From a virus: DNA of 20,521 nucleotides. A program made the translations under genes and the position numbers. The notes beneath the pieces are model-generated. The model was not told the DNA's origin. It ran no database searches and saw only the letters and a list, made by a program, of their open reading frames with translations. The stretch is taken from the IMG/VR virus record IMGVR_UViG_3300025652_000711, positions 1-20,521 of that record. One strand, given 5' to 3'. Numbering within the stretch: the first letter of the stretch is position 1; each line of letters begins with the position of its first letter. Of this stretch, positions 12,370 through 20,419 are shown one piece after another.

Positions 12370-12533
12370 TAATCTAAAAAGAAACTTCTAGCTTCTATCT
12401 CCTGTTTTAACTCTTCTTGAAATGTTGTATTTAATTTTTCTAACACCGCATCTAAATCTCTAACTAAAGACTGTGCTACATCTTCCTCATACTCTGAGCT
12501 TGCTCTAGTTAACGATTGTACTATTTTAGCCAT
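12369..12533 (-). CDS. Small helical protein, 54 aa
   Basis: ATG at 12533-12531 opens a 55-codon frame ending in TAA at 12371-12369. The product starts MAKIVQSLTRASSEYEEDVA and ends KQEIEARSFFLD. It is almost entirely charged and helical, probably a short coiled coil. The start overlaps the stop of the gp10-like gene (TAATG) and the stop overlaps the 111-aa start (TAATG), so it is locked into the coupled operon on both sides. Tiny 'MAKIVxSLTR'-type proteins next to gp10-like genes seem familiar from marine phages, but I assign no function. Confidence 0.8.
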   Translation of the reverse strand: MAKIVQSLTRASSEYEEDVAQSLVRDLDAVLEKLNTTFQEELKQEIEARSFFLD

Positions 12534-14752
12534 TATCGTCTTCCTCCAGCATGTATATCTAATCTAAAAGTACCTAGTTTCCAACTAGTATCCACTGCTG
12601 TGTTGGATATTTTAAGAGCTATAGCTCTTGCTCTAGCACGAGTATCTACTTTTGTTGTATTGGTAGCTACTGTAAAAGGTCCAAGTGATGAGCTTATTGC
12701 TGTGTCATTTGGATAATCTCTTAAATCTAATTGTATAATAGCGTTTCCTTGTTGAGATATAAAATCAGGAATAATTCTACTAACTCTCATAATATTTTCA
12801 CCATCACCTCTAAGATCAGCCATATTTGTAGCTGCTCCTCTTACAACTTTTTGTGTAATGTCATAGTCACCTGATGTAATGTTAGCTGGAATAGCTGTTG
12901 TTACTCCAAGTCTTACTTGGTTAACACCTGTTTCATGTTCATAGTAATATGAAATTCCCTCTGTGTTACCTGTTACATCAAAAGATGTATCTGTATCTGC
13001 ATCATACTGAGTTGCATGAGGCAAACCAAACACAGCTGAGTCTTGCCAAGTAGTTCTAATAAATAAACTATTTGCATTTACAAACCATATAGGTCTTTTA
13101 GCAGTAGAGTCTAAATAACTATATGTAACCGATTGAGTGTTTACGTTAGAGTTAGCTTCTGGATAAAACCAGGTAATTTCACCAAACAAATTATTAATTC
13201 CTGCATAGACCATTTGATTAGATGTTGTATTTAAATTGTCATAAACATAATCTTCAACTAAACAATCCATAGATTCTAGTTTACCTGTGTATCTAAAGAA
13301 ACCGTTATCAGACATCCAGTACGCAGCACCATCAACTTCGACAGCTGCATTCTTACCAATCAATCCACAGTTAGTACCTACCTGTTCAAAAGCAAATGTA
13401 AAAGGAGTTCCAACAAAACGCATAGTAAATAAAGATGTATCAGTCCAAATGTATATTGCATTTCTACCAAGTTTAGCGCCAATGATCCGTGATCCGGCGG
13501 CCAGTCTTTGTGTACCAGCACTATTTTCTGCTGTTGGTGTATAATCATTTATATTTTCTTGAGACGAAAATCTTAAAAACATTTCATCTTGCGTTGATTT
13601 ATCACCAATAGTTGTTTCTGTTCCAAAAAATACTAAGTGACGATCAGGTGTTGACACCAGCATGTCACGTGACGCTGTTGGTGCACCTGTTATAATAGTT
13701 GCTCTTGTTGTTACGGCATCTGTTAAATTTGAATCCCATTCAAAACACTCACCATTAAAAATTAAAGCTACAAGTGTGTCACCTAAATTATCTAAAGACC
13801 ACAAACCAGGTTCAGCTACTTTATCCGTGGTCGATGCTGCTTGGCCCCAAGCCGAGTAAGCACTAAAGTTAGTAACTGTTGCACCATTGCTGTGAGAAGC
13901 ATTAGTTGTTCCTCTAACATTTCTAGTAATTCCTGTAAAACTAGTAGCAGTGGTTCCTGTGTAAGATATTTCTTCATTATCTACTTGTATAAAATTTGTT
14001 CCTGTGCTTGGAAATCCAGTTGTGCTGGCTACATTAATTGTGGTTCCTGTTCCTCCCGTTCCAGCAGAGTCAGCATTTAATGCTCCGTTTAAAGTTGTTG
14101 TTTGTGGGTTTGTAACTGTACCACCCCACTGTGATATACCGTAACCAAAGACTCCAACTTGTTCAGCTGGACCAACATGATAATATCTAAAAAAAGTTAT
14201 ACCACCAGAAGTGCTTGCTCCTGCTCCTCCTTCGTTACTAGGCATTGTAATAGTAATTGTAGTTCCTGAAGGCACACTTGTTACCATAAATTTTTTATCT
14301 GCAAAATCAGCAGCTACAAAATTAGAACCTGAAATAGTAGTAAATGTAGACGCGTCACCAAACAAAATTATATCTCCAACTTCAAAACCATGAGATGTAG
14401 AAAAAGTTATAGTTACAGCAGGTTGGCCATTAGTCGTGCTAAAAGCATTGGTAATTGCTGTACCGGATGGATTAACTAAAGGATGTATATCATAGTACAC
14501 ACCTCCTGAATAAACATATAAAATCCTGTTAGTTCCTAATACAGAATATTTAATACCTGTTTTATTAACCATATGATGCAAAGCTCTAGTTGCACCAGTT
14601 AATTTACTATCTCCTAATTGTGACCACCCACCTATTTTTTCAGGCGTACCGTATCTAAAACGCACATTTTCACCACCTGTCCACTGTGACTCAGCACCTG
14701 TTGGTGTAACTTGTTTATTAAATCCGGGTAAAAATCCTAATTTTTGTAACAT
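12533..14752 (-). CDS. P22 gp10-like tail accessory / DNA-stabilisation protein, 739 aa
   Basis: The N-terminus (GFLPGFNKQVTPTGAESQW, then GENVRFRYGTPEKIGGWSQL) and the region from about 367 to 500 (RHLVFFG, NAIYIWTDTSLFTMRFVG, NCGLIGKNAAVEVDGAAYWM, SDNGFFRYTGK) match my memory of the phage stabilisation family (P22 gp10). Members form a hexameric tail-hub ring that plugs the portal after packaging. It is longer than P22 gp10 (about 470 aa). The extra length includes two beta modules at about 104-181 and 234-294 with the pattern TGFPSTG...VDNEEISYTG...RGTTNASHSNGA, resembling small E1_FCCH-like repeats. A weak AAAGG precedes the ATG. It is the first gene of the left-hand late block and lies divergent from the oxygenase cassette. 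Confidence 0.8.
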   Translation of the reverse strand: MLQKLGFLPGFNKQVTPTGAESQWTGGENVRFRYGTPEKIGGWSQLGDSKLTGATRALHHMVNKTGIKYSVLGTNRILYVYSGGVYYDIHPLVNPSGTAITNAFSTTNGQPAVTITFSTSHGFEVGDIILFGDASTFTTISGSNFVAADFADKKFMVTSVPSGTTITITMPSNEGGAGASTSGGITFFRYYHVGPAEQVGVFGYGISQWGGTVTNPQTTTLNGALNADSAGTGGTGTTINVASTTGFPSTGTNFIQVDNEEISYTGTTATSFTGITRNVRGTTNASHSNGATVTNFSAYSAWGQAASTTDKVAEPGLWSLDNLGDTLVALIFNGECFEWDSNLTDAVTTRATIITGAPTASRDMLVSTPDRHLVFFGTETTIGDKSTQDEMFLRFSSQENINDYTPTAENSAGTQRLAAGSRIIGAKLGRNAIYIWTDTSLFTMRFVGTPFTFAFEQVGTNCGLIGKNAAVEVDGAAYWMSDNGFFRYTGKLESMDCLVEDYVYDNLNTTSNQMVYAGINNLFGEITWFYPEANSNVNTQSVTYSYLDSTAKRPIWFVNANSLFIRTTWQDSAVFGLPHATQYDADTDTSFDVTGNTEGISYYYEHETGVNQVRLGVTTAIPANITSGDYDITQKVVRGAATNMADLRGDGENIMRVSRIIPDFISQQGNAIIQLDLRDYPNDTAISSSLGPFTVATNTTKVDTRARARAIALKISNTAVDTSWKLGTFRLDIHAGGRR

Positions 14753-14761
14753 ATAAAACCT

Positions 14762-14789
14762 TTGAAATATCTGGTTTATCTTATATATT
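14762..14789 (+). promoter_or_regulatory. Candidate promoter for the oxygenase cassette
   Basis: TTGAAA (14762-14767), a 16-nt spacer and TATATT (14784-14789) would start transcription near 14796, about 7 nt before the first cassette ATG at 14803, giving an almost leaderless message with no Shine-Dalgarno. The 50-bp divergent gap also contains AATAAATA (14791-14798), which resembles the T4-type late motif, but such strings are common in DNA this AT-rich. I see no convincing promoter on the minus strand for the gp10-like gene. Confidence 0.4.
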
Positions 14790-14802
14790 AAATAAATATA
14801 GA

Positions 14803-15384
14803 ATGAAAGACAAAAACATAAACTACCGCTATTTTCATTGGGGTCCTTTTCTTTTTAAAACTTTATTAGAACAAAAAGAACTAGATTCTATAAAAAAATT
14901 GTGCAGTAAAAAATCAAAAAGCTACAATAAAAATTTAGCAGGTTTAATAAAACATGAACATATGTTAGATGTTAAAAAAATATTTCCTATATTACTTCCC
15001 TATATTAAATCTTATTCAAAAGCTTTTTCAAATTATTCTGGTAAAAACTTAGGACAAAATATAGAATTAAAATCTTGTTGGGTTAATTATATGACCAAGT
15101 TTGAATCAAATCCATTACATTCACATGATGACGATCTATCTTTTGTAATTTACACTAAGATTCCAAAACAATTAAAAATAGAATATAACAAATGTAAAGC
15201 AAACACAAAACCTGGCGCAATAAATTTTATAATAAGTTTGGATGAAGGATGGATTAATCAACACACTTTTGTACCAGAAGTCGGAGATTTTTTTATTTTT
15301 CCTGCAGACTTAAAACATTACGTAAATCATTTTAAAAGTAACGGAGAAAGAATTTCTATTTCAGGAAATTTAAAAATTACATAA
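14803..15384 (+). CDS. 2OG-Fe(II) dioxygenase-like protein 1, 193 aa
   Basis: This is the first of five consecutive putative 2-oxoglutarate/Fe(II)-dependent dioxygenases, which oxidise a substrate while converting 2-oxoglutarate to succinate and CO2. The C-terminal half has NPLHSHDDDLSFVIYT (H106, H108, with D109/D110 as possible acidic ligand), GDFFIFPADLKHYV (distal H172) and GERISISGNLKI (R183, the usual 2-oxoglutarate carboxylate contact). The layout 'H-x-H ... FPxxLxH ... ERISIS' fits the Putative 2OG-Fe(II) oxygenase group (PF13759-like). The N-terminal ~90 residues are Lys-rich and helical and may bind substrate. Between the two halves is a 30-residue insert (KANTKPGAINFIISLDEGWI). Start ATG 14803 has no ribosome binding site. 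The stop overlaps the next ATG (TAATG). Confidence 0.78.
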   Translation: MKDKNINYRYFHWGPFLFKTLLEQKELDSIKKLCSKKSKSYNKNLAGLIKHEHMLDVKKIFPILLPYIKSYSKAFSNYSGKNLGQNIELKSCWVNYMTKFESNPLHSHDDDLSFVIYTKIPKQLKIEYNKCKANTKPGAINFIISLDEGWINQHTFVPEVGDFFIFPADLKHYVNHFKSNGERISISGNLKIT

Positions 15385-15875
15385 TGACATTAAATCTACA
15401 AATAAAAGATAATTTTTTTACAAAGAAAGAATACGAAATTTTATATAATAATTTAGATAAAATTTATTTCTTACCTAATGTAAATAAAACTGGAAACTAT
15501 GCTGCCTCTCATCCTTTTGAACCAGATGAACAAAATAAATGGTTATTTGATAAGATTAAAAAACAATTTTTTCCAAATGAAGATTTAGAAATAGTGATCT
15601 GTAGGTTTGATGTTAGACATAACAAAGGAAAAGTATTTTCACATTTAGATAATAAAAATACTAATTATAATTGTTTGATTTATTTAAAGGGAGAAGAAGT
15701 AACTTATAATGGAACAGGGTTTTATTATGAAAACAATTTAAATACTTACATAGGGTTTGTTAAAAATAGAGCTTTATTTTTTGATGGCGCTAATATAGTA
15801 CATAGTGATTTACAAGCTTTAGGACCCAGTTCTGCAAGATATACATTAAATATCTTTTATAAGGATAAAACTTAA
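15384..15875 (+). CDS. 2OG-Fe(II) dioxygenase-like protein 2, 163 aa
   Basis: The second cassette gene has the clearest short double-stranded beta-helix signature. H87-L-D89 in VFSHLDNKNTNYN provides the first two iron ligands, H140 in FFDGANIVHSDLQ is the distal histidine, and R152 in SARYTLNIFY is the expected 2-oxoglutarate-binding arginine. The strand layout with GTGFYYENNLNTYIGFV between the ligands resembles the DUF6445-type branch as I remember it (GGTGFYRHR pattern). At 163 aa it is a minimal catalytic domain with only a short N-terminal extension. It starts 1 nt inside the previous stop and ends one base before the next gene, so the three are probably one transcript. The substrate is unknown. 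Confidence 0.78.
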   Translation: MTLNLQIKDNFFTKKEYEILYNNLDKIYFLPNVNKTGNYAASHPFEPDEQNKWLFDKIKKQFFPNEDLEIVICRFDVRHNKGKVFSHLDNKNTNYNCLIYLKGEEVTYNGTGFYYENNLNTYIGFVKNRALFFDGANIVHSDLQALGPSSARYTLNIFYKDKT

Positions 15876-15876
15876 A

Positions 15877-16470
15877 ATGAATTTAAATACTAAAATTTCA
15901 GATTTATTATTGCGAGAAAATTCTTTAGTATTAAAAAAAGATTGTAAATTTTTAATTTCTATTTTTGAAAAATATAAAAATTTAGCTGCTGCAGAATTTA
16001 GTTATAAAAATAAATCTAAAAAAGAAGAAAAAGATAACTATAAATGTTTACCTCTTTCTAATCTATATAACCATAATGAAGAAATAAAAAAAGCAGCAGA
16101 CGTTGCTTTTAAATATATTGAAATAATGATTAACAAGTACATGCAACACATACAAAAAAATATTTGTAAAACATTTGATAGCACGTGTATATCAACTACA
16201 AATACTATAAGATTATTAAAGTATGAAAAAGATCAATACATCAAAGATCATACAGACGTAAGTTCTTCTACTAGAGCGTCTTGTACTTTAAACTTAAACT
16301 CTAATTACCAAGGAGGAGAATTTAGATTTTTTGATGGTAAAATAAAACATTCATTTAATACAGGTGATGCTATAATATTTCCAGCAGAACCAATATGGAT
16401 TCATGGGACAGAACCTATTACTAAAGGTAGTAGGTATGCAATTAATTGTTTTTTAAACTCTAAAACTTAA
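15877..16470 (+). CDS. 2OG-Fe(II) dioxygenase-like protein 3 (prolyl-4-hydroxylase-like fold), 197 aa
   Basis: The third cassette gene. The C-terminal domain has H125-T-D127 in YIKDHTDVSSST, a GGEFRFFDG turn at 146-154, GDAIIFPAEPIWIHGTEPIT with distal H176, and R186 in GSRYAINCF. This order (HxD, GGxF, GDAxxFP, H, R) is typical of the P4Hc / 2OG-FeII_Oxy_3 group of prolyl-hydroxylase-like enzymes. The complete ligand set suggests an active enzyme. The N-terminal 90 residues are Lys-rich helices (KNKSKKEEKDNYKC). The gene is strikingly AT-rich: the line 15901-15960 has only 10 G or C in 60 bases by hand count. No Shine-Dalgarno is seen; a 7-nt gap follows. Confidence 0.8.
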   Translation: MNLNTKISDLLLRENSLVLKKDCKFLISIFEKYKNLAAAEFSYKNKSKKEEKDNYKCLPLSNLYNHNEEIKKAADVAFKYIEIMINKYMQHIQKNICKTFDSTCISTTNTIRLLKYEKDQYIKDHTDVSSSTRASCTLNLNSNYQGGEFRFFDGKIKHSFNTGDAIIFPAEPIWIHGTEPITKGSRYAINCFLNSKT

Positions 16471-16477
16471 TATAAAA

Positions 16478-17044
16478 ATGGATATTTTTGCTACTAGAAT
16501 TTACACAAATAAATTAAAAGAAGATGAAAAATCTATTATTGAATATATTACTAAATTAAAAAAAAATAATAAAGGTAATAAGTTTAGCAATATTGGTTGG
16601 CAGTCTGAAAATTTAGATACAAAAAATAAAATAATATCACCTCTTGTAAAATCAATTGAACAATTAGCTTTTGAGTATGCTAACTCTTTAAACATTAAAA
16701 ATAAATTAAAAGTTGGAAATATATGGGCCAACATTAATGGCTATAAAGATTACAATAGAAGTCATATTCATGGTGGTGTTTTTTCAGGTGTCTATTATCT
16801 TAAAGTTCCAAAAAATTCTGGTAACATAGTGTTTGAAAATCCTGCAGATAAATTAATCTCATCTTTTTGGTTACTTCAGTCACCTTGTATTGTAGTAAAT
16901 AATATTTTTACATCTACTACATGGTCCTTTAAAGGAGAGCCTGGTTTAATTTTAATTTTTCCAAGCTTTTTAAGTCACTATGTTGAATGTAATTTAAATA
17001 AAACAAAAAATAGAGTATCAATGTCTTTTAATTTAATTTTATAA
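16478..17044 (+). CDS. 2OG-Fe(II) dioxygenase-like protein 4 (PF13759/TIGR02466-like), 188 aa
   Basis: The fourth cassette gene is the closest to the phage 'putative 2OG-Fe(II) oxygenase' family. It has WANINGYKDYNRSHIHGGVF with H96 and H98, SGVYYLKVP (103-111), then NIVFENP, GLILIFPSFLSHYVE with H167, and NRVSMSFNL with R179. Proteins with 'NxHxHxxxxxSGVYYLxxP' and a late 'LFPSxLxHxV...RxSxSFN' are known from cyanophages and marine bacteria. The usual acidic second ligand is not obvious in HIHGG, so metal binding may differ from a classic HxD enzyme. The N-terminus (MDIFATRIYTNKLKEDEKSI) fits the family start. It has no ribosome binding site and lies 2 nt before the last cassette gene. Confidence 0.82.
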   Translation: MDIFATRIYTNKLKEDEKSIIEYITKLKKNNKGNKFSNIGWQSENLDTKNKIISPLVKSIEQLAFEYANSLNIKNKLKVGNIWANINGYKDYNRSHIHGGVFSGVYYLKVPKNSGNIVFENPADKLISSFWLLQSPCIVVNNIFTSTTWSFKGEPGLILIFPSFLSHYVECNLNKTKNRVSMSFNLIL

Positions 17045-17046
17045 AA

Positions 17047-17637
17047 ATGGAAAAAACAGTTAGCATAAACAACTTCATAGCAACATACGACAATTACATA
17101 ACGAAAGAAGAATGTAATAAAGCTATAAAATTATATGAAGAAGAAAATAAATTTAATAAAACATTAAGTAGATTAAATAGTGAGCAAGCAAAAGTAACGG
17201 AAAAACAAGATCAACAATATTTTGCAGCAGGTAATAATTTAGAAGTATGGTGGGAATCTTTAAAATCTATGATGGTTAATTATGACTTAGCTTTTCAACA
17301 TTATGTTAAATCTACTGGCGCTTCAGAAGCTTATAATCAAGGATTTAATTTTACAAATTTAAAAATACAAAAAACATTACCTACAGAAGGTTATCATGTT
17401 TGGCATATAGAACATGGAAAAGGTTTTGAAAACGAAGCACGTGCTTTTGTTTTTTCTATTTATTTAAATGATGTAGAAGAAGGTGGAGAAACAGAATTTT
17501 TAAATCAATCTGTTAGAGTACAACCGAAAGCTGGTAGAATTGTTATTTGGCCAGCAGCCTTTCCTTACGTGCATAGAGGTAATCCTCCATTATCTGGAGA
17601 AAAATATATTTTGACTTCTTGGATGATGTTAAGATGA
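17047..17637 (+). CDS. 2OG-Fe(II) dioxygenase-like protein 5 (P4Hc-like), 196 aa
   Basis: The last cassette gene. The catalytic half reads GYHVWHIEHGKGFENEARAF (H117, H120, E122), FSIYLNDVEEGGETEF, then GRIVIWPAAFPYVHRGNPPL with distal H176, and SGEKYILTSW. H120-I-E122 is the likely HxE version of the iron triad. K186 replaces the usual arginine contact for 2-oxoglutarate, a substitution known in some P4H-type enzymes. The YLNDVEEGGETEF turn and 'P-x-x-GR-x-V-x-WP' are typical of prolyl-4-hydroxylase-like proteins in marine phages. The base composition is less extreme than in genes 3 and 4. Its last 9 bases overlap, tail to tail, the end of the minus-strand 133-aa gene, leaving no room for a terminator. 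Confidence 0.82.
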   Translation: MEKTVSINNFIATYDNYITKEECNKAIKLYEEENKFNKTLSRLNSEQAKVTEKQDQQYFAAGNNLEVWWESLKSMMVNYDLAFQHYVKSTGASEAYNQGFNFTNLKIQKTLPTEGYHVWHIEHGKGFENEARAFVFSIYLNDVEEGGETEFLNQSVRVQPKAGRIVIWPAAFPYVHRGNPPLSGEKYILTSWMMLR

Positions 17638-18030
17638 TGTGTAAGAAGTAGGTCTTGAACCTTTTCTTGATATCTGATCAGATTCACTTTCAGTAGAAGC
17701 AATTGTTCCATCTTCATTATATGTATAAATTACGTCACTATCCCATTCAGACTGAAGTACAGATAAATGATGAGCATCCCATTTAGTAATAAATTGACTA
17801 ATGTCTCCTAAATTTGCATCTTCGTATGATGTGTGAGGTGTTGTATCTCTATATTCTACTTCGTCAGAAGTAACTGAAGTTCCATGTTGAATAGCCCATA
17901 TATTAGAAAATTTAGATTCAGACCAAAAAGAACTATCATCGATAACGTATCCAGTTCCTGCTTCAGCTCCATTATTTTTGATGACTTTTTTATCATCGAA
18001 TATTACTGTCCAGTTTGAATTTGTTGCCAT
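17629..18030 (-). CDS. Small tail-region protein, 133 aa
   Basis: I do not recognise a named family. The product is acidic, aromatic-rich and probably mixed beta: NWTVIFDDKKVIKNNGAE at the start, then GYVIDDSSFWSESKFSNIWA, and KWDAHHLSVLQSEWDSDVIY in the C-terminal half. The Ser/Thr-rich tail (RPTSYTSS) is encoded partly within the 9-bp overlap with the convergent oxygenase gene. A strong TAGGAG precedes the start, 8 nt after the collar gene's stop. It lies at the end of the tail-fibre block, suggesting a small virion or tail chaperone role, which is inference. Confidence 0.72.
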   Translation of the reverse strand: MATNSNWTVIFDDKKVIKNNGAEAGTGYVIDDSSFWSESKFSNIWAIQHGTSVTSDEVEYRDTTPHTSYEDANLGDISQFITKWDAHHLSVLQSEWDSDVIYTYNEDGTIASTESESDQISRKGSRPTSYTSS

Positions 18031-18038
18031 ATTTTCTC

Positions 18039-18617
18039 CTAAGTTTTAATTATATAAATAAGTGTTAAATAAGGTTGCAAAACTGACGGGTTAGATGCTG
18101 TACCTGAAAAAGTTGCACTCATATTGTGAGAGTGTCCTGTTCCTGATCCTGCATTACCTGTGTTTGTGCTACCTGTTAAAATACCGGGTTGTACAGCTAA
18201 AGGCTGTGTTTGAGTTGTACCTGAAGGAGCACCTGAGTGAGCGTGTGATGCAAGTTGTGCTGTAGATAAAGAAGCATTAGCTGTTGAACCACCAACGTTT
18301 CCAGAAGGCGTAACTGATACTGTATCTGCTCCACCAGTCGATGCTAAAGCTTTATTGTTTGATTTTGAAACAGCTACTTTATTTTGTAAATCTGGTACAT
18401 TAAAAGTAGATGACCCATCACCTCCACCATAAGTAGAAGCTATAACTGCAAATAATGCAGAATAAGTTGATCTTGAAACGGCTGCTCCGTTACATTCTAA
18501 AAAACCTGTTGGCACTGATGAAGCAGTCCACGGCACGATAGTAGCCGTAGGAATACCTTCAATACCTGTAAGGTTTGATCCATTAAAATCGTATTTTGTT
18601 GCTTCATAATTTGACAT
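18039..18617 (-). CDS. Phage tail-collar domain protein, 192 aa
   Basis: The N-terminal half is a textbook phage tail collar domain (PF07484 type): VPTGFLECNGAAVSRSTYSA near 36-55, then LFAVIASTYGGGDGSSTFNV and PDLQNKV. This fold is found at the tips of tail fibres and receptor-binding proteins, including the T4 short tail fibre. A Gly/Ser/Thr-rich region follows, with ASHAHSG and GTGHSHNMS; the HAH and HSH pairs resemble metal-binding histidines in fibre tips. The end (QPYLTLIYIIKT) is the usual C-terminal strand of this family. Residues 1-20 (YDFNGSNLTGIEGIP) may be a trimerisation or attachment segment. GGAG precedes the ATG, and the start is 1 nt past the stop of the previous gene. It probably contacts the host surface. 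Confidence 0.88.
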   Translation of the reverse strand: MSNYEATKYDFNGSNLTGIEGIPTATIVPWTASSVPTGFLECNGAAVSRSTYSALFAVIASTYGGGDGSSTFNVPDLQNKVAVSKSNNKALASTGGADTVSVTPSGNVGGSTANASLSTAQLASHAHSGAPSGTTQTQPLAVQPGILTGSTNTGNAGSGTGHSHNMSATFSGTASNPSVLQPYLTLIYIIKT

Positions 18618-18618
18618 A

Positions 18619-19317
18619 TTATTTCTCCGTGTAAGTCCATCCTACGTCTGAACCAGAATAAACCAATCCAAATGCTGCACCCTCAGTATTGACTACTAAG
18701 TCTGATGATGCGTTAGTTATTTTAGAACTATTTCTTCCAACAGTCAATGCGTTAGAATCAAAAGTGTATCTTGAGTCTACAAAATTTACCGTATCACCAA
18801 CAGTTGGTGATGCTGGAAGAGTAGCTGTTACTGCCCCACCATTTGTATCTATAAAAAGTTGAGCACCTGCTTGAATTGTTTCTGATGCTGTTATAGTTCT
18901 CCAAAATCTAGTTTCGTGATCTTTAATCATGTTAGTTCCATCTGAGTGACAGATATAATTATTACCTTCACATAACAAGAAACCTGAAGCACTTGTAACT
19001 TTAAAAGTTAAAGTATATCCTGCGTGATTAGTTCCATCTATTACATTAAATATTTTTTCTATACTTGCTGGAAAATTTACTGTTCTGTTTGCCGCAAGAG
19101 TTCCAGTAAACTTTAAAGTCATGTTTCTTGCGTTTGAAATTGTAGCATCAGACATTGCAAGAGTAACATCTCCAGATGCTACATCTATTGCTTGAAAACC
19201 TGCAACAGATTGTTGAACAAGGTTTAAATTATTATTTGTTTTTGTGCCCCATGTACCAGCGTTTTCACCGGTTGCCATTAGCTCTAGTTTTAAATCTGAG
19301 GAATAACTTGATGCCAT
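18619..19317 (-). CDS. Tail-fibre-like protein, 232 aa
   Basis: The N-terminus (YSSDLKLELMATGENAGTWG, then TKTNNNLNLVQQSVAGFQAI) is a pattern I associate with tail-fibre or baseplate-proximal proteins of marine phages ('LxLxxTGExAGTWGxxTN'). The rest is beta-rich with repeated short strands (MTLKFTGTLAANRTVNFP, then a GYTLTFKVTSASGF stretch) and ends in NTEGAAFGLVYSGSDVGWTY, a common C-terminal signature of cyanophage and pelagiphage fibre proteins. No enzymatic motif is visible. The ATG is preceded by AGGAGA with 8-nt spacing, and a good promoter lies just upstream. It is probably part of the receptor-binding apparatus together with the collar protein downstream. Confidence 0.75.
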   Translation of the reverse strand: MASSYSSDLKLELMATGENAGTWGTKTNNNLNLVQQSVAGFQAIDVASGDVTLAMSDATISNARNMTLKFTGTLAANRTVNFPASIEKIFNVIDGTNHAGYTLTFKVTSASGFLLCEGNNYICHSDGTNMIKDHETRFWRTITASETIQAGAQLFIDTNGGAVTATLPASPTVGDTVNFVDSRYTFDSNALTVGRNSSKITNASSDLVVNTEGAAFGLVYSGSDVGWTYTEK

Positions 19318-19378: not shown

Positions 19379-20419
19379 TTATACAGGGTTTCTTCTTGTA
19401 TATCCTGTGCTTGTTTTTGGTGTTCTAGGTGTATATCCTGTGCTAGTCTTAGGTGTTAATTTTTCATAAGTACCTGGGAAAGCTATTCCTGTACCATTAA
19501 CACTAGCTTCAAGTTCTAGGCCAGTTAATCCTATAGACATTTCTGTAGGAGAAATAGTTCCTGTACTTGCAGTTGATAACACTCCTGTTAGTGGAACTCC
19601 TATTGCAGGAATAATAGATCCAACACTTGATGTTGATGACACCCCTGTTAGTGTAAATATTTGAGTTTCAGTGATAGTGATATCTCCAACACTGGAAGTT
19701 GATAACACTCCTGTTAGTCCCATAACATCAGCTGGAGAAATACTTCCAACACTTGATGTTGATGATACTCCGGTTAATCCTATGACATCAGCTGGAGAAA
19801 TACTTCCCACAGTAGATGTTGCACTAACACCTGTTATAACAGGCGTAGAATCTATAACAAAACTTAAAGAACCAACATTAGTTGTTGCGCTAACTCCTGT
19901 TGGAGATATTACCGATGTTAAATCTAAAGTTAATGCACCAACACTAGATGTTGCACTTAATCCAGCAGGTTGTTCTAATTTATTAAATGAATCTCCGTAA
20001 GGTTCTTCACCCCAACCATTTCTACCCCAACCAACTAAAGTACCTGCGTTATCAAAACTTCCAAGTTCTGTTTGTGATTGTAATCCTGTTGGACTTACAA
20101 TGGATGTTAAATCTAATGTAAGTGAACCAAGTGCCGTAGCTGCTTGAACTCCTGTTAACTCTGCAGTGATAATTTGAGTAGCTACAACACTTCCAACACT
20201 AGAAGTTGCACTTAAACCAGTCGGTTGTACGGCATATTCTACACCCCAACCAGAGTTGCCCCATTCTTGTCTACCCCAACCTTCTTCATTAAAAGATTCT
20301 ACTGAACCAACTGTGCTTGTAGTACTAACGCCGGTTAAAGAAACTGTAAGAGTATTAGATGCCCAGGAATTTTCATTCCAGGCTACTGAAGGACTATCAC
20401 CACCCCAGATAGATGCCAT
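19379..20419 (-). CDS. Repeat-containing tail/adhesin-like protein, 346 aa
   Basis: The protein contains twelve copies of a 13-residue unit of the form (L/P/I)TGVSATSSVGSI, separated by 7-28 residue linkers. Copies near residues 28, 66, 88, 110 and onward are spaced irregularly; the later ones are nearly regular at 20-22 residues with SPADVxG linkers. Trp-Gly motifs interrupt the early part (GWGRQEWGNSGWG, VGWGRNGWGEEPYG). The C-terminus repeats TPKTSTGYT twice. Such short beta-strand repeats with Ser/Thr are typical of fibrous or stalk-like virion proteins and could be targets of protein modification. No catalytic site is seen. ATG 20419-20417 lies inside a hairpin with its ribosome binding site. 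A fibre role is inferred from the repeats and neighbours. Confidence 0.78.
   Translation of the reverse strand: MASIWGGDSPSVAWNENSWASNTLTVSLTGVSTTSTVGSVESFNEEGWGRQEWGNSGWGVEYAVQPTGLSATSSVGSVVATQIITAELTGVQAATALGSLTLDLTSIVSPTGLQSQTELGSFDNAGTLVGWGRNGWGEEPYGDSFNKLEQPAGLSATSSVGALTLDLTSVISPTGVSATTNVGSLSFVIDSTPVITGVSATSTVGSISPADVIGLTGVSSTSSVGSISPADVMGLTGVLSTSSVGDITITETQIFTLTGVSSTSSVGSIIPAIGVPLTGVLSTASTGTISPTEMSIGLTGLELEASVNGTGIAFPGTYEKLTPKTSTGYTPRTPKTSTGYTRRNPV
19725..19807 (-). repeat. 60-bp-period DNA repeat inside the adhesin-like gene
   Basis: The 23-nt string running from ACATCAGC to ATACTTCC (plus-strand view) occurs exactly at 19725-19747 and again at 19785-19807, 60 bases apart, with similar sequence between. 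It encodes the SPADVxG linker plus part of the VGS unit. The near-identity at DNA level points to recent duplication or slippage, so repeat number may vary between relatives. Confidence 0.8.

Follow-up and report, generated by a model that had tools for sequence, protein, structure and literature searches.

An antiparallel, variable cassette of 2-oxoglutarate oxygenase genes with one obligate member in the tail module of HTVC027P-type pelagiphages

Results

We analyzed a virus contig of 20,521 nucleotides, IMG/VR record IMGVR_UViG_3300025652_000711 (the window), and within it a block of five consecutive genes, A to E, at positions 14803–17637 on the plus strand. Gene A (14803..15384, 193 aa) has the 2-oxoglutarate (2OG)-Fe(II) oxygenase fold of the PF13759/TIGR02466 type, with the pattern H-x-H-x-x-D .. 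H .. R and a match to phrog_81 (1.4e-28). Gene B (15384..15875, 163 aa) has a PHD/prolyl-4-hydroxylase (P4H)-like fold with H87-x-D89 .. H140 .. R152, and gene C (15877..16470, 197 aa) is a PF13640 oxygenase of PKHD/YbiX-like type (H-x-D .. H .. R). Gene D (16478..17044, 188 aa) again shows the PF13759/TIGR02466 fold (H-x-H .. H .. R), and gene E (17047..17637, 196 aa) is a P4H-like oxygenase (H-x-E .. H .. K; phrog_61, 2.5e-45). All five reading frames are intact, with zero internal stops, and are packed almost without gaps: B begins on the final base of the stop codon of A (–1), and the following gaps are 1, 7, and 2 bp. The G+C content of positions 15001–17000 is 0.235–0.252, below that of the rest of the window (0.30–0.39). 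The structural genes around the block are encoded on the other strand. To its left, the gene for a 739-aa virion structural/tail stabilisation protein (12533..14752, minus strand; phrog_3287) diverges from A. To its right, minus-strand genes converge on E, encoding a 133-aa conserved tail-module protein (17629..18030, here p17629), a tail collar fibre protein (18039..18617; PF07484, 3.8e-21), a tail/fibre-region protein (18619..19317; phrog_31104, 8e-55), and a repetitive S/T/G/V-rich tail-region protein (19379..20419).

A preliminary description made from the sequence had proposed five adjacent, divergent 2OG-oxygenase-like genes at this place, and its lengths and coordinates are exact. In the HMM comparison that it called for, A (PF13759, 5.7e-14), C (PF13640, 2.2e-11), D (PF13759, 5.5e-18), and E (PF13640, 6.1e-12) score above the Pfam gathering thresholds; the sole Pfam match of B, to PF13640 at 0.016, falls below. 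The AlphaFold model of B (pLDDT 92, pTM 0.88) has HIF prolyl hydroxylases as its best solved matches in Foldseek, with PHD2 at a probability of 1.00 and a TM-score of about 0.7, and all of 50 relatives retain H87, D89, H140, and R152. This structural evidence ruled out that B, with its weak Pfam score, is a false oxygenase. A to E are all proteins of the 2OG-Fe(II) oxygenase fold, B by AlphaFold and Foldseek and the other four by Pfam. Paralogy is detectable between A and D (about 1e-8) and between C and E (about 1e-6), and B stands apart.

The preliminary description also assigned each gene an iron-binding His/acid pair, which holds for B and C (HxD) and for E (HxE). In D the motif is H-x-H-G-G, with the acid missing at the HxD position and H-x-H found throughout the D family, and in A it is H-x-H-D-D; the H-x-H of A and D is shared with the PF13759 structures 2rg4 and 3bvc, which are also the structural matches of D. 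The distal His and the 2OG-binding residue beyond it were correctly foreseen, the latter being a conserved R in A to D and K in E. E matches Bacillus P4H structures (3e-8), and the fold, the HxD/E..H triad, and the Arg/Lys are common to E, B, and C and to P4Hs (5hv0/3itq, 5c5t vCPH, 4j25/4iw3) and PHD2. However, identity to these enzymes is low, and a known peptide substrate belongs to them only. No Tet_JBP or AlkB-type Pfam match was found for A to E at E<=1, and in PADLOC A, C, and E drew just generic '2OG, CAS-associated' models, with no defence neighbours seen; membership of a defence or DNA-modification family was rejected for want of a Pfam or PADLOC system match.

Among isolates, Pelagibacter phage HTVC027P (MN698241) is the nearest relative. 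The 739-aa protein is 45–46% identical to those of HTVC027P, HTVC023P, and 023Pt_psg01 over 77–100% of its length, and the gene order of the window is that of HTVC027P. By this shared tail gene and synteny, the window comes from an HTVC023P/HTVC027P-type pelagiphage. Isolates of this type infect the SAR11 strain HTCC1062, and a SAR11 bacterium is the presumed host of the window virus. Homologs of E at 62–72% identity occur in Alphaproteobacteria and Pelagibacteraceae single-cell assemblies (loci L363 and L365), where they are probably phage DNA inside infected SAR11 cells.

To see how the block varies, loci were gathered by searches with A, B, D, and E and, to avoid bias, with nothing but the left tail gene and the collar gene. 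This gave 135 distinct IMG/VR cassettes, each bounded by the tail gene and a collar/fibre-side border gene; both borders were required, so that phages without a collar/p17629 homolog lie outside the count. In all 135 the cassette sits between the tail gene and the fibre genes on the opposite strand. The slot is 0.63–5.9 kb long, changes in steps of about one gene, and is about 98% coding, with 581 of the 592 cassette open reading frames (ORFs) in one direction. Each cassette holds one to eight oxygenases (one to seven in the 62 that are tail-anchored). Every cassette has a single copy of E (135/135), and the shortest hold no other gene. As 80 of the loci derive from the E search, the statement that E is obligate rests on the 62 tail-anchored cassettes, all of which carry it once (62/62). 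E is the obligate single-copy core gene of the antiparallel cassette.

The content around E turns over. The Jaccard index of accessory content is 0.17–0.18 at 80–90% E identity and 0.15 at 65–70%, and cassettes are near-identical only above 95%. The exact order A to E is confined to the close lineage of the window (four contigs, including the window), and A to E is one state of a variable, swappable cassette. The preliminary description had taken five oxygenases in a row to be unusual; at least five occur in 15 of the 62 tail-anchored cassettes, and phage HTVC008M also has five adjacent ones. Its suggestion that the enzymes might act in series does not hold in the sense of a fixed five-enzyme pathway, which was ruled out by the turnover of cassette content, only E being obligatory. 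As for the co-occurrence in viromes that it asked about, the kind of cassette is conserved and the exact set is found in four contigs of one lineage. The cassette genes have dN/dS values of 0.16–0.23 in large families and up to 0.34 in small ones (one two-sequence family set aside), and are therefore maintained and in use.

The three contigs that share the A to E set with the window (L003/L065, L004/L064, and L005) rule out an assembly artefact. One of them, L005, is 98–100% identical to the window across the tail-stabilisation gene, A to E, and the fibre genes, whereas the neighbouring genes are just 43–94% identical and its upstream genes are strongly unlike those of the window. Judged from these identities, L005 would represent a recent exchange of the entire tail block, with the cassette travelling along.

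In a sister group of phages the slot is occupied by the same gene families, but these run in the direction of the tail genes. One or more oxygenases lie within 6 kb in 55 of 58 such loci, and oxygenases make up 207 of the 319 ORFs located upstream. These parallel loci mostly lack a recognised E (11 E matches among the 207 oxygenase ORFs), and E is mainly a feature of the antiparallel group.

Gene neighbourhoods were compared with gene order shuffled inside each cassette; these order and co-occurrence counts are uncorrected for shared ancestry, the E identities among cassettes being mostly 64–87%. Oxygenase family o0 is followed by o3 29 times against 7.5 expected, and C is followed by o4 23 times against 4.6 expected. 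C and o3, present in 36 and 39 cassettes, never co-occur (p = 6e-7). The fixed pairs and this exclusion therefore suggest two alternative two-enzyme modules, o0-o3 and C-o4, in competition for one slot. The window has D, and not o4, directly after C.

Other enzymes occupy the slot in relatives: a flavin tryptophan halogenase (PF04820, 5e-37), an O-carbamoyltransferase (PF02543, Carbam_trans_N, 4e-15) that is often split over two ORFs, a methyltransferase (PF13489, Methyltransf_23, 2e-10), a JmjC/cupin protein (1e-7), a DUF6817-2OG fusion, and a sulfotransferase-like protein whose PF03567 match (1e-3) is below the cut-off. The carbamoyltransferase appears as adjacent N- and C-terminal halves in L203, L267, L289, L290, L323, and L096, and as a single ORF in L228, L255, and L296. 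A gene for a 109-aa ParB_N-like protein and the methyltransferase gene occur together in 10 of 10 cassettes (L269, L273, L282, L286, L292, L294, L296, L330, L337, and L342), usually adjacent or nearly so (adjacency observed 7 times, 1.7 expected), and could form a separate module.

Published work pairs pelagiphage 2OG oxygenases with a 'ferrochelatase' (PMC9599517, PMC11561400). The proteins so annotated, HTVC023P gp67 (L355:5289-5909), HTVC008M AGE60402 (L357:1809-2450, minus strand), and 023Pt_psg01 URG13120 (L353:7054-7710), belong with cassette subfamily cl3/o3, which matches HTVC023P gp67 at 3e-28 and the HTVC008M protein at 8e-33. Pfam assigned no family, ferrochelatase included, to HTVC023P gp67 or URG13120, and profile-profile comparison alone (14%) left the question open. 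In cl3, H90-x-D92..H136 is invariant, and all 50 best solved Foldseek matches of its AlphaFold model (pLDDT 89.9) are 2OG oxygenases, including the P. putida P4H. For cl3, the model and its matches ruled out a ferrochelatase partner that supplies iron chemistry. The pairs described as oxygenase plus ferrochelatase are therefore probably two oxygenases each and correspond to the o0-o3 module. Other labels are also in doubt: phage genes of family cl17 labelled 'DNA endonuclease V' carry H-x-D..H and match cassette oxygenases, and a 'minor coat protein' of phage S-ShM2 shows HxD..H by eye without an HMM hit (loci L353:5313-5795, L357:21477-21959, and L358:31955-32671). The labels of phrog_274 and phrog_1644 look wrong.

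Among isolates, HTVC027P gp72-gp74 fill the same slot, with the same antiparallel orientation and borders as in the window; gp73 is the E ortholog (78%), and the other two oxygenases, gp72 and gp74, fall in the A/D-related o1 group. Unlike the window, HTVC027P has three genes instead of five, of which only gp73 had been annotated as an oxygenase. That marine phages can carry many 2OG oxygenase genes is already known (PMC3037559, PMC9602691, PMC9599517, PMC9964418). For HTVC023P-type pelagiphages, the same phage group, Wittmers et al. 2022 described a co-located set of eight non-orthologous 2OG oxygenases (PMC9599517); there the genes are nearby yet non-adjacent and paired with ferrochelatase, whereas cassettes of the window type are contiguous and, in the antiparallel subgroup, never lack E. 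The T4-like myovirus HTVC008M (KC465899) resembles the window in having five consecutive oxygenase-family genes (56808-59681), antiparallel to the virion genes, which include E-like and cl3 members and sit at the edge of the tail/baseplate island, with the baseplate/fibre region on one side and the neck genes on the other; it also carries a PhyH-halogenase pair beside the terminase (63198-65157). Its neighbours differ, and the block was never given a function. Cyanophage S-SCSM1 has 24 2OG genes (PMC9602691), and S-SCSM1 and S-ShM2 share the same Pfam families in bulk with the window. In S-ShM2 an oxygenase run (039-042) adjoins fibre genes, as does a tryptophan halogenase. Unlike the window, neither has been shown to hold one modular cassette with an obligate core, and the text on the S-SCSM1 virion proteome names no oxygenase, so that packaging in virions is unsupported there.

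Discussion

Phages of the HTVC023P type are widespread and infect SAR11, the most abundant marine bacteria. Few genes without an explanation recur in marine phages as often as those for 2OG oxygenases, which are usually ascribed to host metabolism. We tentatively read A to E as late-made tailoring enzymes that would hydroxylate tail proteins of the virion, encoded in a swappable cassette between the tail-stabilisation and fibre genes, a reading to which we give nearly, though not quite, an even chance. A more specific proposal, possible but on balance doubtful, is a locus for chemical diversification of the tail, in which the constant hydroxylase E would be combined with exchanged modules and the adhesin varied by chemistry instead of sequence.

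In tail tailoring, A to E would be read as one operon during virion assembly. This timing is suggested by the co-directionality of the sister group with the tail genes and by a promoter-like element enriched in the divergent gaps. Each enzyme would use Fe(II), O2, and 2OG to leave hydroxylated side chains on tail proteins, E at a constant site and A to D at variable ones. In relatives, new or existing groups might then be capped by the carbamoyl-, methyl-, or sulfotransferase-like gene products or halogenated by the flavin halogenase. An enzyme swap would alter the chemistry of the tail tip, and with it receptor binding or masking, while the fibre gene stays unchanged.

Four features favour a virion target: E, B, and cl3 are related to P4H/PHD enzymes, capping enzymes occur in the cassettes of relatives, the slot has a fixed place within the tail module, and tail block and cassette were apparently transferred together. 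The halogenase, carbamoyltransferase, and methyltransferase partners act on side chains or hydroxyls, which we count for tail tailoring. Consistent with this, the oxygenase blocks or tryptophan halogenases of HTVC008M and S-ShM2 adjoin fibre, baseplate, neck, or other virion genes. By analogy, the turnover of the cassette resembles that of host-recognition loci, and in Mizuno 2014 the metaviromic-island genes grouped under 'host recognition' include Fe(II)-oxygenases (PMC3909814).

Several observations weigh against tail tailoring. The sequences of the fibre, collar, and p17629 proteins do not follow accessory content (Mantel r <0.07, column signal within chance), and a model of site-specific fibre modification might predict such covariation. 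EctD and free-proline hydroxylases are among the Foldseek hits, showing that the same fold hydroxylates small molecules, and T4-like phages keep some oxygenase copies near replication genes. As to precedent, no description of tail-fibre hydroxylation in phages was found in the literature searched.

Modification of the host surface or of host proteins (porins, glycans, or EF-Tu-like), leading to a superinfection block or to tuning of the infected cell, is unlikely but deserves a hearing. Pelagimyophage host-recognition islands with glycosyltransferases are thought to alter the host surface (PMC7029224), and in HTVC023P and HTVC027P a glycosyltransferase gene lies close to the tail gene; the EF-Tu-bound 4iw3 is one of the prokaryotic P4H structures most similar to the phage folds, and high turnover would suit phage-phage competition. 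However, the slot is fixed within the tail module and contains no constant surface or export partner, and the sister group is co-directional with tail genes.

A drain on 2OG that signals nitrogen status would need just one enzyme, and the many divergent subfamilies, their mutual exclusion, and the capping enzymes point to distinct specific targets. Close relatives, moreover, swap cassette content freely. A metabolic role of this kind, or one on small-molecule substrates, is therefore improbable here, although it was proposed for cyanophages (Sullivan 2010, PMC3037559) and ectoine and free-proline hydroxylases are Foldseek neighbours. We rate equally low the view that the slot has no unified function and is a hot spot of gene exchange, located where the coding strand switches and filled with selfish or neutral small enzyme genes. 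Free turnover and the lack of covariation with flanking genes would fit such a hot spot; the obligate single-copy E, the fixed pairs, the dN/dS values, and the almost exclusive presence of one enzyme superfamily in the slot would not. Modification or repair of nucleic acids (TET/JBP or AlkB-like), perhaps as anti-restriction, is very improbable: DNA repair was once proposed for phage 2OG proteins (PMC3037559), PHROG labels related families 'DNA endonuclease V', and 10 cassettes hold the pair of ParB_N-like and methyltransferase genes, but that 'endonuclease V' relative is the H-x-D oxygenase family cl17, and A to E gave neither the relevant Pfam matches nor more than generic PADLOC models.

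The preliminary description thought this the best candidate for an undescribed system. Multiple co-located 2OG oxygenases are on record in HTVC023P-type phages, S-SCSM1, and HTVC008M; what stands is the organisation, since no description of the obligate E, the modular slot, the module exclusion, or the fixed tail-fibre location was found in the literature searched. The sequence comparisons and the predicted cl3 structure give evidence for three new points: an obligate core gene, modular swapping, and the oxygenase fold of the 'ferrochelatase' partner. The locus is less singular than first thought, as its neighbours do likewise, and more interesting in its organisation. With the tail-module slot, the obligate core, and the capping enzymes, the hypothesis of virion modification becomes specific and can be tested on the culturable pair HTVC027P/HTCC1062, which turns a vague class of 'auxiliary metabolic gene' into a locus with a testable target. 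The case against the 'ferrochelatase' label removes the partner gene that underlies published ecological interpretations (PMC9599517, PMC11561400).

The promoter-like element of the window, TTGAAA-16-TATATT (14762..14789, plus strand), lies in the divergent gap ahead of A. Of 130 cassette gaps, 24 contain a stricter form of the pattern, where shuffling predicts 1.5; the scan overall gave 23 matches against 22.4 expected, without enrichment, and only the gap-specific enrichment is used here. Besides TTGA..TATATT, many divergent gaps, such as 14753-14815 of the window, hold a conserved AGAATGAAAG, which spans the start codon of A in the window and lies upstream of the first gene elsewhere.

The best single candidate substrate is p17629. 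Its C-terminus, R-P-T-S-Y-[ST]-S (window 17632-17655, minus strand), is near-invariant and the rest of the protein is variable; among isolates p17629 is found only in HTVC027P. That a predicted prolyl hydroxylase is encoded beside a protein whose conserved Pro may be exposed is no more than a hint. The 60-bp tandem repeat at 19685-19830, inside the tail-region gene at 19379-20419 (minus strand), encodes a repeated peptide that could be a multi-site substrate.

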